A stretch of DNA of 22,406 nt from IMG/VR virus record IMGVR_UViG_3300013104_000077, positions 1-22,406 of that record; one strand, 5' to 3'. Position numbers and translations under genes: made by a program. The DNA comes from a virus. Position 1 is the stretch's first letter. Every line of letters starts with the position of its first letter. The notes under the pieces were generated by a model, which was not told where the DNA came from, ran no database searches, and saw only the letters and a program-made list of their open reading frames with translations. This document shows positions 567 to 17,641 of this stretch, piece after piece.

Positions 567-590
567 ACCACTGCCCACACTCGCATAACC
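567..590 (+). promoter_or_regulatory. Candidate phage RNA polymerase promoter, copy 1
   Basis: The 17-base string ACCACTGCCCACACTCG (567-583) occurs again, unchanged, at 12792-12808. Both copies lie in intergenic DNA: one just after the polymerase gene, one just before the virion genes. T7-group polymerases use promoters of about 20 bases whose core resembles CACACTATAG or CTCACTATAG, and CACACTCG fits the specificity part of that pattern. The following bases differ from the usual TATA. The start site would be near 584-588, leaving a short leader before the gene at 620. The repeat is seen; the promoter role is inferred from position and partial core similarity. Confidence 0.55.
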
Positions 591-6967: not shown

Positions 6968-7537
6968 ATGCGATTCGCATCTATTCACGACGAGTGCTCG
7001 GTGTTGCCCTGGCGGGTCAAGCACCGGGCCATGCTCGGTGGTGGCGCACTGCGCAGTTACTTCGACGGAACGATGGTGAAGGACTACGACCTGTTCTTCG
7101 AGTCCCTGGCCGATTGGCAAGTCTGCGTCACCCAGTTGGATGCGGACCCCGCCTTTGCCATCCAGGCATCCGCCGCCGACACGCTGTACCCGACCTACGT
7201 CCACATCTACACCGGCCGGCTGTTCAACCTGATCGGGTTCCGCTTCTACCCCAACCCGCAGGAGCTGGCCCATTCCTTCGACTTCCGATGCACGGCGATG
7301 GCCCTTCGTCTCCGCGATCCCGCGCTGACGTTCTACGGAGTGCCGGGTGCTTCCGAGGATTGCGCGGCCAAGGCGCTGAACTTCCTGAACCTGCAGCCGA
7401 CCAACCGCGTCGCCAAGCGCCTGCGTCGATACGTCGACGAGCGCGGCTACACCCCCACCGACGACTTCGTGTCGAAGGTCGCCCACTGCGCCCACGTGAC
7501 CAACCCCGGGTGCTCTTACAACGGAGACATTGCATGA
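6968..7537 (+). CDS. Nucleotidyltransferase-fold protein
   Basis: This encodes 189 residues. RAMLGGGALRSYFDG followed by KDYDLFF fits the nucleotidyltransferase signature G-G, spacer, D-x-D, with D39 and D41 as metal ligands. SFDFRCTAMAL supplies a likely third acid (D105). The family transfers nucleotides to RNA, protein or small molecules (poly(A) and CCA polymerases, antitoxin-type enzymes, and others). Related proteins occur in several T7-like and other phages with no settled role. The C-terminal part (NRVAKRLRRYVDERGY) is basic and helical and might hold the substrate. Its initiation region lies in dyad site 2, so expression may be controlled separately from the operon. The fold is likely; the substrate is unknown. 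Confidence 0.72.
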   Translation: MRFASIHDECSVLPWRVKHRAMLGGGALRSYFDGTMVKDYDLFFESLADWQVCVTQLDADPAFAIQASAADTLYPTYVHIYTGRLFNLIGFRFYPNPQELAHSFDFRCTAMALRLRDPALTFYGVPGASEDCAAKALNFLNLQPTNRVAKRLRRYVDERGYTPTDDFVSKVAHCAHVTNPGCSYNGDIA

Positions 7538-7794
7538 ACCTGTTCGCGCGCATCAAGGCCCTGTTCAGCCGCCCGCAGCCCGCCCCGCAGCCCGTCGTCG
7601 ATCGTCCGTTCCAGGTCGGCGATCGCGTCCTCGCAAATGACCCTGGTTACCACTTTGGCGCGCAGAGGGGAGTCATCACGAAAGCGTATTCTCCCCGCTG
7701 CTTCGCGGTGCGCCTGACCGCCTGGGACGAACCGACCGACGGCGGTCCTCATGGCTGGTCCTTCTACACCCACGAGCTCACGTTGCTGTCCTGA
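7534..7794 (+). CDS. Hypothetical small protein with SH3/KOW-like domain
   Basis: This encodes 86 residues. ATG 7534 overlaps the previous stop (ATGA); the longer open frame upstream lies over the nucleotidyltransferase gene. After a basic, proline-rich N-terminus (FSRPQPAPQPVV), residues about 24-84 read like a small beta barrel: FQVGDRVLAND, GAQRGVITKAYSPRCFAVRL, and WSFYTHELTLL. The VGDRV, turn, G-x-I pattern is typical of KOW/SH3-like modules that bind nucleic acid or protein. It lies directly before the DNA polymerase gene. The function is unknown. Confidence 0.72.
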   Translation: MNLFARIKALFSRPQPAPQPVVDRPFQVGDRVLANDPGYHFGAQRGVITKAYSPRCFAVRLTAWDEPTDGGPHGWSFYTHELTLLS

Positions 7795-7799
7795 CACCT

Positions 7800-9713
7800 G
7801 TGGATACTCCCGCGCTGGTCTTTGACCTGGAGACCGATGGTCTGCTCGACACCGTAACGAAGGTCCACTGCCTGAACATCATCGACCGCGCCACCGGCAA
7901 GCGCCTCCGCTTCAACGGTGGCGTTTACGGCAGCGGTGACAAGGCTCGCCGCGACGGGACGATCGAGGAAGGCGTTGAGCTGCTGCGCAAGGCTGACGTC
8001 ATCGCTGGTCAGAACGTGATCGCCTACGACATCCCGGTGCTGGACAAGCTGTTCGGCTTCAAGCCCACCGGCAAGGTGTTCGACACCCGGACCGCCTCGC
8101 GCGTCATCTGGCCCAACCTGGCTGACATCGACTTCGCCGCGATCCGGGCCGGCAAGCGTCCCGTCGACTTCCAGTCGAAGGGCTACGTCGGCAGCAACAA
8201 GCTGGCCGCCTGGGGCTTCCGCCTCGGCGAGTACAAGGGTGACTTCAACCCGAAGGACTACGGCTACACCTGGGCCACCTGCCCCTTCATGCTGGAGATG
8301 TCCGACTACTGCGAGCAGGACTGCGAGGTCACGCTCAAGTGGCTGGAGTTCATCGAGTCGCGCAACTACTCCCAGGAGTGCCTGGACCTGGAGATGCGCG
8401 TCGCCACGATCATCGCTGCCCAGGAACGCCACGGCTTCTGCTTCGACGTCCCCGCGGCGGAGAAGCTGGCCGCTTCCCTGATGGCCGAACGCGCCGAGCT
8501 GGAGTCCGCACTCACCTCCCTGTTCCCCCCGTGGAAGGCCAAGGACGGCAAGCCGTTTGTCCCGAAGCGCGACAACGCACGTTTTGGCTACACGGCCGGC
8601 GTGCCGGTGCAGAAGTACAAGACGGTGGTGTTCAACCCCGGCTCCCGCGATCACATTGCCGATCGCCTGATGACCGTGCACGGGTGGAAGCCCAAGGTGT
8701 TCACGCCCACGGGAAAGCCACAGATCGACGAGACGATCCTTGGTGCCCTGCCCTACAACGAGGCGAAGGAGCTGACCCGCTACATGCTGCTGGTGAAGCG
8801 GCTAGGCCAGCTCGCCGAGGGCTCCAAGGCGTGGCTCAAGAAGGTCAAGGCGGACGGTCGGATTCACGGCTCGGTCAACACCAACGGCGCAGTCACCGGC
8901 CGCATGACCCACTCCGACCCCAACGTCGCCCAGGTGGACAAGTGGGAGCCCATGCGCGCCCTGTGGACGGTGCCGAAGAACTACGTCCTGGTCGGCTGTG
9001 ACGCCGAGGGCCTGGAGCTGCGCTCAATGGGCCACTACATGGCTCAGTGGGACGGCGGCGAGTATGCCGAGGCGGTGGTCAACGGCAAGAAAGAGAACGG
9101 CACAGACGTCCATACCGTGAACCAGAAGGCCATTGGCCTGAACAAGCGGGACAGCGCCAAGACGTTCATCTACGCGCTGATCTATGGTGCCGGCGACTTC
9201 AAGCTCGGCACCATCGTGCGCGACGACTACACCGACGAGCAACGAGCGAAGTTCAAAGTTCGGAAGGACTCCAAGACGTCTCTTGCTGCCCTCGGCAAGG
9301 CTCGCCGTGCCCGTCTGATGAAGGCCCTTCCCGCGCTCGGGAAGCTCACTGCTGCCGTCAAGAAGCGGGCCAAGCTCCGCGGCTACCTCAAGGGTCTCGA
9401 CGGCCGAAAGCTGCACGTCCGGGCCGAGCATGCGGCCCTGAACACCCTCCTGCAGTCTGCGGGTGCGGTGGCAATGAAGAAGGCCCTGGTGCTGTTTGCA
9501 GATGCGGTCGAGGCTGACCCGAAACTGCGCGGCAAGGTCCACCCGGTGGCGAACATCCACGACGAGTTCCAGATCGAAGTTCCTCCGAACCTGGCGCAGA
9601 TCGTGGGCAAGCTCGCTGCCGATTCCATCACCAAAGCAGGCGAGCACTTCGGTTTTCGGTGCCCTCTGAGTGGTGCCTTTGATGTGGGCAAGAACTGGAG
9701 TGAAACCCACTGA
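7800..9713 (+). CDS. Family A DNA polymerase with 3'-5' exonuclease domain (T7 gp5-like)
   Basis: This encodes 637 residues (T7 gp5 has 704) from a GTG start at 7800. It replicates the phage genome with gp4-like helicase and gp2.5-like protein. The N-terminal proofreading domain has D9 and E11 (FDLETDGLL), an ExoII segment GQNVIAYDIPVL and ExoIII YCEQDCEVT. Polymerase motif A is GCDAEGLELR (D401), motif B is RDSAKTFIYALIYGAG (R450, K454, Y458), and motif C is NIHDEFQIEV (D588). Between W245 and F278, where T7 carries its thioredoxin-binding insert, there are only about 32 residues, roughly half the T7 length. The host processivity factor may therefore be different or not used. No strong ribosome binding site is seen at the GTG. 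Confidence 0.96.
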   Translation: MDTPALVFDLETDGLLDTVTKVHCLNIIDRATGKRLRFNGGVYGSGDKARRDGTIEEGVELLRKADVIAGQNVIAYDIPVLDKLFGFKPTGKVFDTRTASRVIWPNLADIDFAAIRAGKRPVDFQSKGYVGSNKLAAWGFRLGEYKGDFNPKDYGYTWATCPFMLEMSDYCEQDCEVTLKWLEFIESRNYSQECLDLEMRVATIIAAQERHGFCFDVPAAEKLAASLMAERAELESALTSLFPPWKAKDGKPFVPKRDNARFGYTAGVPVQKYKTVVFNPGSRDHIADRLMTVHGWKPKVFTPTGKPQIDETILGALPYNEAKELTRYMLLVKRLGQLAEGSKAWLKKVKADGRIHGSVNTNGAVTGRMTHSDPNVAQVDKWEPMRALWTVPKNYVLVGCDAEGLELRSMGHYMAQWDGGEYAEAVVNGKKENGTDVHTVNQKAIGLNKRDSAKTFIYALIYGAGDFKLGTIVRDDYTDEQRAKFKVRKDSKTSLAALGKARRARLMKALPALGKLTAAVKKRAKLRGYLKGLDGRKLHVRAEHAALNTLLQSAGAVAMKKALVLFADAVEADPKLRGKVHPVANIHDEFQIEVPPNLAQIVGKLAADSITKAGEHFGFRCPLSGAFDVGKNWSETH

Positions 9714-9748
9714 TGCGCACATCCAATCATCCAAGGAGTAGCACACTG

Positions 9749-10609
9749 ATGCAACGCAAAACCCCTGTGAAGGGGACCAAGCAGGTCGGCCTCCGCGACT
9801 TCATCGCGGCTGGCCGCAAACAACGGGGGCCGCGAGTTCTCCTGGCCGACATCGAGACGTTCCCGATCGAGGGGTACGTCTGGAACCTGTGGAAGCAGAA
9901 CATCGGGCTGGACCAGATCAAGCAGGATTGGACGCTCATGTCCTTCGCCGCCAAGTGGCTGGGTCAGCCCGAGGTCTACTACGACGACGTGTCGGAGAAG
10001 CGGGACGTTCGCGACGACGACTCACTGCTCCGTGACGTGCATCGACTCCTGTCCAATGTGGACATCCTGGTCGCCCACAACGGCCAGCGGTTCGACCTGC
10101 CGAAGCTCAAGGCTCGCATGGCCATCCGCCGACTGAGCCCGCTGCCTCCCATCAAGGTGCTGGACACGCTGCTCCTGAACCGACGCGCGTTCGGCTTCAC
10201 TTCCCAGCGACTTGCCTACGTCAGCGACCAGTTCGCCGAACAGGCCAAGGACTATCACAAGAACTTCCCCGGCTTCAAGCTGTGGCGGGAATGTCTCGCC
10301 GGCAACCGAAAGGCGTGGCAGGAGTGCCGCGAGTACAACATCATCGACGTCACGTCGATGGAGGAGACCTACAAGGCGCTCCGTGGGTGGTACGAGGGTG
10401 CGCCGAACTTCGGCCCGTACATCTCCCCGAGCAAGGATGGTGCCGTCGTCTGCCCGACCTGCGGCAGCGAGCACGTCGAACGCCGAGGATCACGAGAGAC
10501 CCAGGTGGGCATCTATGCCCGGTTCCACTGCTTGGATTGTGGCGGCTGGTCTCGTGGTCGCTACCAGGCCGTGTCCCGCAAGCTCCGTGAGCACATCCTC
10601 ACGAACTAA
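9749..10609 (+). CDS. DnaQ/RNase H-fold 3'-5' exonuclease with C-terminal zinc ribbon
   Basis: This encodes 286 residues from ATG 9749, chosen for AAGGAG at 9733-9738. An in-frame ATG at 9713 (TGATG with the polymerase stop) would add 12 residues. ExoI is LLADIETFPIEG (D34, E36), ExoII is DILVAHNGQRFDLPKL, and ExoIII is ECREYNIIDVTSMEETY, so all DEDD acids are in place; the fold resembles the exonuclease part of family B polymerases. The C-terminus has VCPTCGSEH (C235, C238) and HCLDCGGW (C261, C264), a zinc ribbon. The polymerase next door has its own proofreading domain, so this is an extra nuclease, perhaps for end processing, recombination or host DNA breakdown. Confidence 0.88.
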   Translation: MQRKTPVKGTKQVGLRDFIAAGRKQRGPRVLLADIETFPIEGYVWNLWKQNIGLDQIKQDWTLMSFAAKWLGQPEVYYDDVSEKRDVRDDDSLLRDVHRLLSNVDILVAHNGQRFDLPKLKARMAIRRLSPLPPIKVLDTLLLNRRAFGFTSQRLAYVSDQFAEQAKDYHKNFPGFKLWRECLAGNRKAWQECREYNIIDVTSMEETYKALRGWYEGAPNFGPYISPSKDGAVVCPTCGSEHVERRGSRETQVGIYARFHCLDCGGWSRGRYQAVSRKLREHILTN

Positions 10610-11780: not shown

Positions 11781-12010
11781 TGGATGACTCCCCGGCTCTG
11801 GTCACCTTCATCGGCGGCTCGGCCAATCTAACCCAGCGGGTATTACAACAGCGCGAGCTTGGTCCGTACTTCGACGTCGCGGTGATGCCGGACATTCGTG
11901 AGTACGGCCCTGGGTATGAGCCAATGCGGGTGGTTGCCAATCGTGAACGCTACATCCTGAAACAGGTGGCGAGATCACATTTCGTAGCCCTCATCGAGTC
12001 TATCCGATGA
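11780..12010 (+). CDS. Hypothetical protein, 76 residues
   Basis: ATG 11780 overlaps the previous stop; GGGGAGAAG upstream is a good ribosome binding site. The product has a strand-turn N-terminus (ALVTFIGGSANLTQRV), a central FDVAVMPDIREYGPGYEPMRVV, and a helix at the end (ILKQVARSHFVALIESI). It resembles small uncharacterised proteins found next to exonuclease genes in T7-like phages, but I cannot name a family. The stop overlaps the exonuclease start (ATGA). Confidence 0.72.
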   Translation: MDDSPALVTFIGGSANLTQRVLQQRELGPYFDVAVMPDIREYGPGYEPMRVVANRERYILKQVARSHFVALIESIR

Positions 12011-12792
12011 CTCCCAAGAACAAGGCTCGGACCCTCCTGATCGACGCCGACATCTTCGCCTACGCTGCCTCCGCCGTTTCCGAGAAGGTCTACTACTGGG
12101 ACGGCCCCGGCTCGGAACCCTCAGTCGACACCGAGGAGACCCCCGAGTCAGCCGGCAAGCTCGCCATCGAGCGCATCGAGAAGATCGCCAACCAGCTCAA
12201 GGCCAGCCGCATCGTGGTCTGCCTGACCGACGCCCACAACTTCCGAAAGGACGTGTGGCCGCAGTACAAGGCGAACCGAAAGGACGTCCGCAGGCCGACC
12301 CACCTGATCGGCGTGAAGGATGCCCTGGCGTCCAAGTACGAGACGTACAAGCGTCCCGGCCTGGAGGCCGACGACTGCATGGGCATCCTGGCGACGCACA
12401 AGACCCTGATCCCTGGCGAGAAGGTCATCGTGTCCAGCGACAAGGACCTCAAGACGATCCCTGGGCTGCTGTTCAATCCGGACAGGGATCGGGTGCCCCA
12501 TCGGATCACCAAGGTGGCCGCCGACAGGAACTTCCTGCAGCAGGTCATCACGGGTGACGCCACCGATGGCTACCCCGGCTGCCCCGGTGTTGGCCCGAAG
12601 TCCAAGTTCGTGGGCCTGATCCACACGTGCACCACGCTCAGTGAGATGTGGCGGCACGTCCTGGATGCCTACGCCAGCAAGGGCCTGACGGCCACCGATG
12701 CCGTCCTGCAGGCTCGCATGGCGCGCATCCTCCGGGCGACCGACTGGGACTTCAAGCTCAAGGCGCCGAGGCTCTGGAGCCCGCCAATCTGA
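12007..12792 (+). CDS. 5'-3' exonuclease, FEN/PIN fold (T7 gp6-like)
   Basis: This encodes 261 residues (T7 gp6 has about 300). It digests duplex DNA from the 5' end, removing RNA primers, helping recombination and degrading host DNA. Acidic metal-ligand clusters are visible in order: LLIDADIFAY (D13, D15), RPGLEADDCMGILA, VIVSSDKDL, and the helix-hairpin-helix region ITGDATDGYPGCPGVGPKSK. The VWPQYKANRKDVRRP segment is the arch/helical entry typical of FEN enzymes. The gene ends the replication block. Its stop lies next to the second copy of the 17-base promoter-like element. Confidence 0.92.
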   Translation: MTPKNKARTLLIDADIFAYAASAVSEKVYYWDGPGSEPSVDTEETPESAGKLAIERIEKIANQLKASRIVVCLTDAHNFRKDVWPQYKANRKDVRRPTHLIGVKDALASKYETYKRPGLEADDCMGILATHKTLIPGEKVIVSSDKDLKTIPGLLFNPDRDRVPHRITKVAADRNFLQQVITGDATDGYPGCPGVGPKSKFVGLIHTCTTLSEMWRHVLDAYASKGLTATDAVLQARMARILRATDWDFKLKAPRLWSPPI

Positions 12793-12815
12793 CCACTGCC
12801 CACACTCGGATATAC
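12792..12815 (+). promoter_or_regulatory. Candidate phage RNA polymerase promoter, copy 2 (late)
   Basis: ACCACTGCCCACACTCG (12792-12808) is identical to 567-583. It begins one base after the T of the exonuclease stop region and precedes a 200-base noncoding stretch and the whole virion gene block. This is where T7-group phages place a late (class III) promoter. Transcription would start near 12809-12813. The last bases, CACACTCGG (12801-12809), also have a perfect 9-base complement at 12916-12924. Confidence 0.55.
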
Positions 12816-12981
12816 ACAACATATTGTGTCTGGTCCTCCGAGTTCACCCGATTGCACACGATGCAATAGGGCTGGTCTGCATCCCTGTTCTGCTTAACCG
12901 ACAGTTTCGGTAGTCCCGAGTGTGCAGCCGGGCACCCCTTCTGATCCCCCTGACCGCTACTGGTCAGGGGGATTTTTTTTT
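12810..12981 (+). ncRNA. Candidate structured small noncoding RNA between promoter element and terminator
   Basis: This stretch has no supported gene and can fold into successive hairpins. ACACAA (12814-12819) pairs with TTGTGT (12824-12829). CCC plus ATTGCA (12847-12856) pairs with TGCAAT plus GGG (12862-12871) across one G-A mismatch. ACCGA pairs with TCGGT around CAGTT (about 12897-12911), inside an outer stem of CTGCA with TGCAG. A 12-bp terminator stem closes the 3' end. With the promoter-like element just upstream, the predicted transcript is about 170 nt. This may be a true small RNA, or a leader/attenuator read through by the phage polymerase. The pairings are seen; the RNA itself is inferred. 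Confidence 0.5.
12944..12981 (+). terminator. Strong intrinsic terminator before the virion genes
   Basis: ATCCCCCTGACC (12944-12955) and GGTCAGGGGGAT (12962-12973) pair perfectly over 12 bp around loop GCTACT, followed by nine Ts (12973-12981). This is a textbook intrinsic terminator. It would stop transcripts arriving from the replication and lysis block, or cut the transcript of the promoter-like element at 12792 to about 170 nt. The first virion gene starts 12 bases after it. Confidence 0.95.
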
Positions 12982-12992
12982 CGAGGAGTCCC

Positions 12993-13223
12993 ATGCCTGC
13001 ACCCGCCACAAAGCCCGGCAAGCAGCGGGCCAATCTCCGCCGTCTGGTCGCCGCACACAGCGAGCTCGTTCTCGCCCTCGACCAGCTCTACCCCTCCCTG
13101 CCGCCGAGCCTTGATGACTCCGAGCGCCTGGTGTGGGCCAAGGCCGGCGAGCGCCGACTTGTCGACCACCTACTAACCCTACTGCGCGAGTCCAACGAGC
13201 GCGGCAACCTATTGGAGGACTGA
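12993..13223 (+). CDS. Hypothetical protein, first gene of the virion block
   Basis: This encodes 76 residues with a good ribosome binding site, GAGGAG at 12983-12988, directly after the terminator T run. The N-terminus is basic (MPAPATKPGKQRANLRRL); the rest is helical, with LVAAHSELVLALDQLYPSL and LVDHLLTLLRESNERGN. It lies where T7 has genes 7 to 7.7, several of which encode host-range or minor tail proteins. No family is recognised and no membrane segment is present. Confidence 0.75.
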   Translation: MPAPATKPGKQRANLRRLVAAHSELVLALDQLYPSLPPSLDDSERLVWAKAGERRLVDHLLTLLRESNERGNLLED

Positions 13224-16575: not shown

Positions 16576-17595
16576 ATGGCAAATGCAACTCCCTCCCGCT
16601 TCGGCCAAATCCAAGGTGCCGGCGCGACCGATGCCCTGTGGCTCGACATCTTCGGTGGCGAAGTCCTGACGGCCTTCGAGACCAAGGTCCAGACCAAGGA
16701 CCGCATCCGCACCCGCACGATCACCGAAGGCAGGTCCGCCCGCTTCCCGGCGACCTTCAAGGCGCACACCCAGTACCACACTCCGGGTGTCGAAATCGCT
16801 GGTCAGACGATCCAGTCGAACGAAGTCACCGTCACCCTGGATGATCTGCTGATCTCCCCGGTGGAAATCTCCGAGATCGACGAGCTGAAATCGCACTTCG
16901 ATGTGCGCGCTCCCTACTCCGCCGAGTTGGGCAACTCGATGGCTCTGGCGTATGACCGCGTTGTCACCCAGTGCCTTCTGGCCGCTGCCCGCGGTGCCGC
17001 CTTGTTCGCCGATGATGACGCCGGTGGCGCCGTGATCGAGACCGACGTGGCTGCCGGCGCGAGCTTCTCCACCTCGGGTTCCGACCTGATCGACGGTGTG
17101 AACCTCGCCAAGCAGGCGTTGGACGAGAAGGACGTGCCCGTCGAGAACGGCGTGTCCGCTCTGTTCCTGCCGGCCCAGTGGTATCTGATGGCCCGCACGG
17201 ACCACAACATCAACCAGTTCTACGGTGGTCAGTCCACCCTGGCGCACCAGGTGCTCACCACGGTGAGCGACATCCAGATCGTCAAGTCGAACGCTCCGTT
17301 GTTCGGCAAGGACGTCACCCCGTATGACGCCGGCACCAACGCTGACGGCCTGGTTGGCGCTCCGTCCGGCAAGTACCAACTGCCGGCTGGCTTCGCCACG
17401 AAGTACCAGGGCGACAACACCAAGACGGTGGGTGTCGTGTGGACCGAGGCGGCGGCTGCGATGCTGCAGTTGATGGGCTTGAAGATGGAGTCCGAGTGGG
17501 ACGCCCGTCGTCAGGTGACCTTCATGCTGGCGAAGATGGCCATCGGTGCAGGTCCGCTGCGCAGCAAGTGCGCCATCGAACTCAAGACCGCGTAA
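16576..17595 (+). CDS. Major capsid protein (T7 gp10A-like)
   Basis: This encodes 339 residues (T7 gp10A has 345), HK97-fold shell protein. The N-terminal arm (NATPSRFGQIQGAGATDALWLDIFGGEVLTAFE) is typical of the T7 group. Further conserved segments are RSARFPATFKAHTQYHTPGVEI (residues about 54-75), VTVTLDDLLISPVEISEIDELKSHFDVR, and LPAQWYLMARTDHNINQFYGGQSTL near residue 200. The C-terminal KMESEWDARRQVTFMLAKMAIGAGPLRSKCAIEL also matches the family. No slippery sequence like that giving T7 gp10B is seen at the end. A structured leader precedes it and an intrinsic terminator follows it, as in T7. Confidence 0.97.
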   Translation: MANATPSRFGQIQGAGATDALWLDIFGGEVLTAFETKVQTKDRIRTRTITEGRSARFPATFKAHTQYHTPGVEIAGQTIQSNEVTVTLDDLLISPVEISEIDELKSHFDVRAPYSAELGNSMALAYDRVVTQCLLAAARGAALFADDDAGGAVIETDVAAGASFSTSGSDLIDGVNLAKQALDEKDVPVENGVSALFLPAQWYLMARTDHNINQFYGGQSTLAHQVLTTVSDIQIVKSNAPLFGKDVTPYDAGTNADGLVGAPSGKYQLPAGFATKYQGDNTKTVGVVWTEAAAAMLQLMGLKMESEWDARRQVTFMLAKMAIGAGPLRSKCAIELKTA

Positions 17596-17606: not shown

Positions 17607-17641
17607 AAACCCATCCCGAGAAAATCGGGGTGGGTTTTTTT
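17607..17641 (+). terminator. Intrinsic terminator after the capsid gene (T7 T-phi analogue)
   Basis: AAACCCATCCCGA (17607-17619) pairs with TCGGGGTGGGTTT (17625-17637) over 13 bp with one T-G wobble, around loop GAAAA. The Ts at 17635-17641 complete it. T7 has its main polymerase terminator at the same map position, directly after gene 10. It should reduce, not abolish, transcription of the tail genes and so favour capsid over tail proteins. Confidence 0.93.

Follow-up and report, generated by a model that had tools for sequence, protein, structure and literature searches.

The region between the 5'-3' exonuclease gene and the first virion gene of this T7-like phage probably holds a late-operon leader/attenuator cassette, which would end in a partial terminator and be able to carry non-coding RNA (ncRNA) cargo. 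The phage single-subunit RNA polymerase (RNAP) would start at G12808, within the only promoter copy found from the replication genes to the end of the window (the whole stretch analysed, a virus record of 22,406 bases). The transcript would open with a 5'-terminal hairpin, probably a protector of the 5' end, and continue through the approximately 105 non-coding nt that lie in the window between this hairpin and a strong intrinsic terminator placed ahead of any virion gene. Some polymerases would stop there and release an RNA of 172-174 nt while others would read through and produce virion mRNA. The terminator would thereby determine how much leader RNA is made relative to virion mRNA, with the leader probably in excess, and the interval before the terminator would behave as a slot where some related phages put tRNA genes.

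The window opens inside a T7-like RNA polymerase gene, in its C-terminal part, and continues with the primase/helicase, DNA polymerase, 5'-3' exonuclease, head-tail connector, head assembly protein, major capsid and tail protein genes. Its closest contig, IMGVR_UViG_3300014497_000034 (G001, the "sister" hereafter), is 95.9% identical in DNA over 9.4 kb and includes a complete single-subunit RNAP gene. The cognate RNAP is thus phage-encoded, in line with the PF00940 match at the start of the window. The best annotated relatives of the window exonuclease belong to the Autographiviridae, at about 45% identity or less, and the bacterial genomes scanned with this protein gave distant relatives only (41% or less). 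Among annotated phage records none matches the 12793-12981 stretch itself, the single match falling in the exonuclease gene. Two peculiarities lie elsewhere in the window. Positions 1087-1194 form an exact 54-bp tandem duplication (18 codons), for which the overlap of BLAST blocks suggests one copy in the sister. The DNA polymerase appears split over two adjoining ORFs (7800-10609), a polymerase of 637 aa followed by a 298 aa product that matches the 'DNA polymerase exonuclease subunit' family.

The features discussed below are as follows.

567-583, plus strand: predicted phage-RNAP promoter copy 3' of the RNAP gene (class II-like), predicted +1 G583; exact 17-nt match to the late copy, at the same site as the repeats of relatives.
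12007-12792: 5'-3' exonuclease gene.
12792-12808, plus strand: predicted late phage-RNAP promoter (counterpart of T7 phi6.5), predicted +1 G12808; motif repeated at equivalent sites in the sister and relatives, identity ending at G.
12808-12981, plus strand: predicted non-coding leader RNA of 172-174 nt, from promoter start to terminator end.
12808-12836, plus strand: 5'-terminal hairpin from +1, closing pairs GGAU/GUCC, upper stem ACACAA/UUGUGU; consistent U-G to U-A change in the sister, equivalents in all late copies tested.
12847-12871, plus strand: hairpin 2, CCC/GGG and AUUGCA/UGCAAU, loop CACGA; stem replaced in the sister by GCGGAUG/CAUCCGC, loop CAUGA.
12852-12927, plus strand: alternative long-range pairing of 12852-12859 with 12920-12927, exclusive with hairpin 2 and unavailable in the sister.
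12897-12911, plus strand: hairpin 3, ACCGA/UCGGU; stem identical in the sister, loop changed.
12943-12981, plus strand: strong intrinsic terminator that precedes every virion gene, GC-rich stem with the U-run directly after; equivalent in 20/22 close relatives.
12993-13223, plus strand: first late ORF (76 aa), whose start codon lies 11 nt past the T-run; 99% identical in the sister.
13531: head-tail connector gene.
16576-17595: major capsid gene.
17609-17641, plus strand: another strong terminator, immediately 3' of the major capsid gene, at the position of T7 Tphi.

The repeated promoter-like element noticed at the start of the stretch is real. The window has two exact copies of the sequence ACCACTGCCCACACTCGNATA, at 567 (30 nt past the RNAP stop codon) and at 12792 (beginning at the exonuclease stop codon), and no further copy within 5 mismatches was found in the window, late region included. 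The motif recurs in the sister in three copies, two at the places equivalent to those of the window and the third upstream of the RNAP gene, with one change within the 17-nt core. For relatives whose exonuclease is 49-60% identical, the stretch following RNAP was compared with the one following the exonuclease; eight relatives carry a repeat of their own at these equivalent sites, and in seven of them it is clear (GTCAGTGCTTGCTCTAG, GTCATACGTGGGAATAG, CGATTAGGGCCAGGGAGAG and others). One relative's repeat, AATAGTGTTCGACTATAG, resembles the T7 promoter TAATACGACTCACTATAG. As judged from this recurrence, the ACCACTGCCCACACTCGNATA repeat is a phage-RNAP promoter whose late copy is positioned like phi6.5, which lies upstream of gene 6.5 and is the first of the class III promoters in T7 (PMC6068830). 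Since repeat identity stops at a G in each relative compared, +1 of the window most likely falls at 12808 rather than near 12810 as first proposed, and the cognate RNAP is predicted to initiate at this G. The base following +1 is G in nearly all late copies and C in the copies located after RNAP (T in G010 and G012). No sigma-70 promoter was found in the 12793-12981 region. The copy upstream of the RNAP gene (238-254 of the sister in window orientation, and also present in relatives) is placed as is LUZ100 phi1 (PMC10134795), an arrangement that could possibly generate positive feedback.

The predicted transcript begins with a stem. The hairpin originally recognised at 12814-12829 exists as described, but it belongs to a longer one, 12808-12836, that starts at +1. 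Each predicted transcript was folded over its first 60 nt, with the mean pairing of bases 2-5 taken as the measure. Late starts range from 0.71 to 1.00 (10/10 paired, n=10) versus 0.00 to 0.75 for the other copies (n=20; Mann-Whitney p = 9e-6), the samples not being independent, given the near identity of window and sister here and the relatedness of all the phages; the hairpin sequences differ between most genomes. A closing stem pairing 12801-12809 with 12916-12924 had also been envisaged. It is abandoned here because most of the first arm belongs to promoter DNA lying upstream of +1, and an RNA initiated at the promoter would not include it. The two segments form a nine-base inverted repeat, one arm in the promoter and the other in the insert, which can pair only in RNA reading through from upstream; that RNA might therefore fold differently from the promoter-initiated one. 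The inverted copy was also considered as a minus-strand promoter and rejected, about 6 extra bases splitting the motif.

The terminator reported at the end of the stretch is confirmed as a strong one, with 14 pairs (12943-12974) and a T-run at 12973-12981. All of the 11 genomes scanned possess a terminator 71-370 nt after the exonuclease, and most of them a second one 4.4-5.3 kb further on. A wider scan located it 74-373 nt past the exonuclease in 20 of the 22 contigs whose exonuclease is at least 49% identical. L020 and L021, which represent the same phage, are without it, their U-run being missing, and the L018 contig stops too soon for a judgement. Few contigs below 49% identity have a terminator there; as it appears from this distribution, the late terminator is clade-specific. 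The single known terminator for T7 RNAP follows gene 10A and is incomplete (PMC6068830). Within our incomplete coverage of the literature, no account was found of T7-like phages in which a terminator separates the late promoter from the virion genes. Additional promoters that could bypass it were not apparent in the late regions of five contigs of 45-47 kb (G002, G005, G007, G009 and G010), where no further copy was found at 3-4 mismatches, a search that a late promoter of diverged sequence would escape; G006 has one possible extra late copy (3 mismatches). With no further late promoter copy and a terminator ahead of the virion genes, virion transcription most likely must pass this terminator. 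We infer that the terminator acts on the phage RNAP and leaks, and that the short RNA accumulates with little function of its own; the start, stop and abundance of the leader RNA are predictions.

The region has no coding capacity that we could support, in agreement with the original prediction. Between +1 and the end of the T-run the sister carries a net addition of 7 nt, mostly in hairpin 2, and such indels between the two genomes break any frame in 12793-12992, so that a coding gene was rejected. The insert between the 5' hairpin and the terminator does show signs of structure. Hairpin 3 (12897-12911) is present as originally drawn. Hairpin 2 (12847-12871) also exists, but in the isolated window RNA it is outcompeted by the long-range pairing, which is better by 4.4 kcal/mol; the different stem found at this site in the sister has a formation probability of about 0.95. 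Replacement of the hairpin 2 stem by another that still pairs, with the CAYGA loop kept, together with the kept stem of hairpin 3 and the consistent change in the 5' hairpin, argues for RNA structure, in a comparison of two sequences only. The insert fold appears partly conserved between window and sister, and the favoured interior pairing differs. Folding against shuffled controls, as initially suggested, gave z = -5.4 with the terminator but only -2.35 from 12793 and -1.8 from +1 (26/500 shuffles as stable) without it. The folding excess is therefore mainly that of the terminator.

These structures raise the question of a genuine trans-acting phage small RNA (a base-pairing regulator, a protein-binding decoy or an anti-defence RNA) whose excess would result from the terminator that follows it. 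We regard this as unlikely, although such an RNA would account for a promoter and terminator of its own around a non-coding stretch, for the re-paired hairpin 2 with its CAYGA loop, and for the stems or pairing kept in all three hairpins. Its homologues do not extend beyond the sister: a specific pattern scan matched the sister only, and nhmmer over all the loci collected recovered only window and sister, other hits having E about 0.6 (the matches listed for a looser 16-base pattern were evaluated through this profile search alone). No Rfam family reached its gathering score, the best, NsiR1, scoring 24.7 of 39 bits, mostly owing to the terminator. The global fold differs between window and sister, the fold excess is modest once the terminator is removed, and relatives do without the insert. 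A trans-acting role for the window RNA is possible but unsupported. The roughly 170-nt RNA first put forward therefore stands as a short RNA predicted by its anatomy and by the relatives, but not as a conserved, independently acting small-RNA gene, since its sequence is limited to one sister, its interior fold differs there and the slot of relatives holds other content. Two particular modes of action were considered. Anti-Shine-Dalgarno action through CCUCC (12835-12839) was rejected, CCUCC being absent in the sister, and no convincing anti-terminator pairing with the terminator arm was found by eye. It is likewise doubtful that the terminator behind the only late promoter serves to give ncRNA in excess over virion mRNA, with the RNA of the window lineage as an undescribed functional phage ncRNA and tRNAs as the product of the slot in other lineages.

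The hairpins could also be RNase III processing sites or elements stabilising the late mRNA, the terminator-like hairpin acting mainly as a 5' cap beside the ribosome-binding site with little real termination. A 5'-terminal hairpin at all late starts and the position of the terminator hairpin, 11 nt before the first late start codon, are consistent with this. However, the conserved run of 7-9 Ts directly after the stem is needed by termination and not by processing, which makes this explanation quite improbable.

In relatives the interval between promoter and terminator varies: it contains tRNA genes or unrelated hairpins, or measures only about 50-75 nt. The tRNA genes lie between the two elements in L008 and in L011 and L013 (alike here), and just past the terminator in L012 and L016. 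In L270 (G010), just after the late terminator, and in L016 (5998-6074), ARAGORN predicts a tRNA with a 4-base anticodon 'gcaa'; it has an Rfam tRNA match of 46 bits and its anticodon loop is possibly unusual. No tRNA was detected in the window insert by ARAGORN or with RF00005/Rfam, and the calls obtained at relaxed thresholds were all either on the minus strand or intron-containing and were not the same in window and sister, so that a decayed tRNA or tRNA cluster is very improbable here despite the tRNA genes of several relatives at the same place. Sequence comparison across the clade brings out the promoter identity and position, the 5' hairpin, the terminator, the general layout and the slot tRNAs of relatives. 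What is conserved is the predicted unit of late promoter, 5'-terminal hairpin, terminator and virion operon, not this particular RNA.

The late-operon leader with its partial terminator can be compared with known systems. As in the window, T7 has a late phage-RNAP promoter, phi6.5, between the exonuclease and virion genes (PMC6068830) and a terminator after the capsid gene, the second terminator of the window occupying the Tphi position. However, in T7 no terminator intervenes between phi6.5 and the virion genes, and there are further late promoters, phi9 and phi10, whereas the window has a strong terminator within 174 nt of its late promoter and no other late copy was found. The cultured Caulobacter phage S2B (MN857473), whose exonuclease is 45% identical to that of the window, carries its own promoter three times; the late copy immediately follows the exonuclease and is separated from the late genes by a strong terminator. 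It differs by a leader RNA of about 87 nt with no room for cargo, a weaker 5' hairpin and another promoter sequence. S2B (L281) also encodes an integrase beside the RNAP gene (7043-8158). In Pseudomonas phage LUZ100, the mapped phage-specific promoter phi6 lies between the exonuclease and connector genes (PMC10134795); downstream of it comes what is, judged by eye, a homologue of the small first late gene. There the terminator-like hairpin is upstream of phi6, not downstream, and ends the replication operon. The slots of L008 and L011/L013 also have non-coding RNA between late promoter and terminator but, unlike the window, this consists of tRNA genes.

If this interpretation is right, virion gene expression in the clade would depend on read-through of an intrinsic terminator, unlike in T7, and the interval before the terminator would constitute a high-output ncRNA slot. 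Many phage genomes would thereby acquire a named place in which to seek tRNAs and undescribed ncRNAs. It would also provide a set of predicted RNAP-promoter pairs, testable in cultured S2B on Caulobacter vibrioides CB15.
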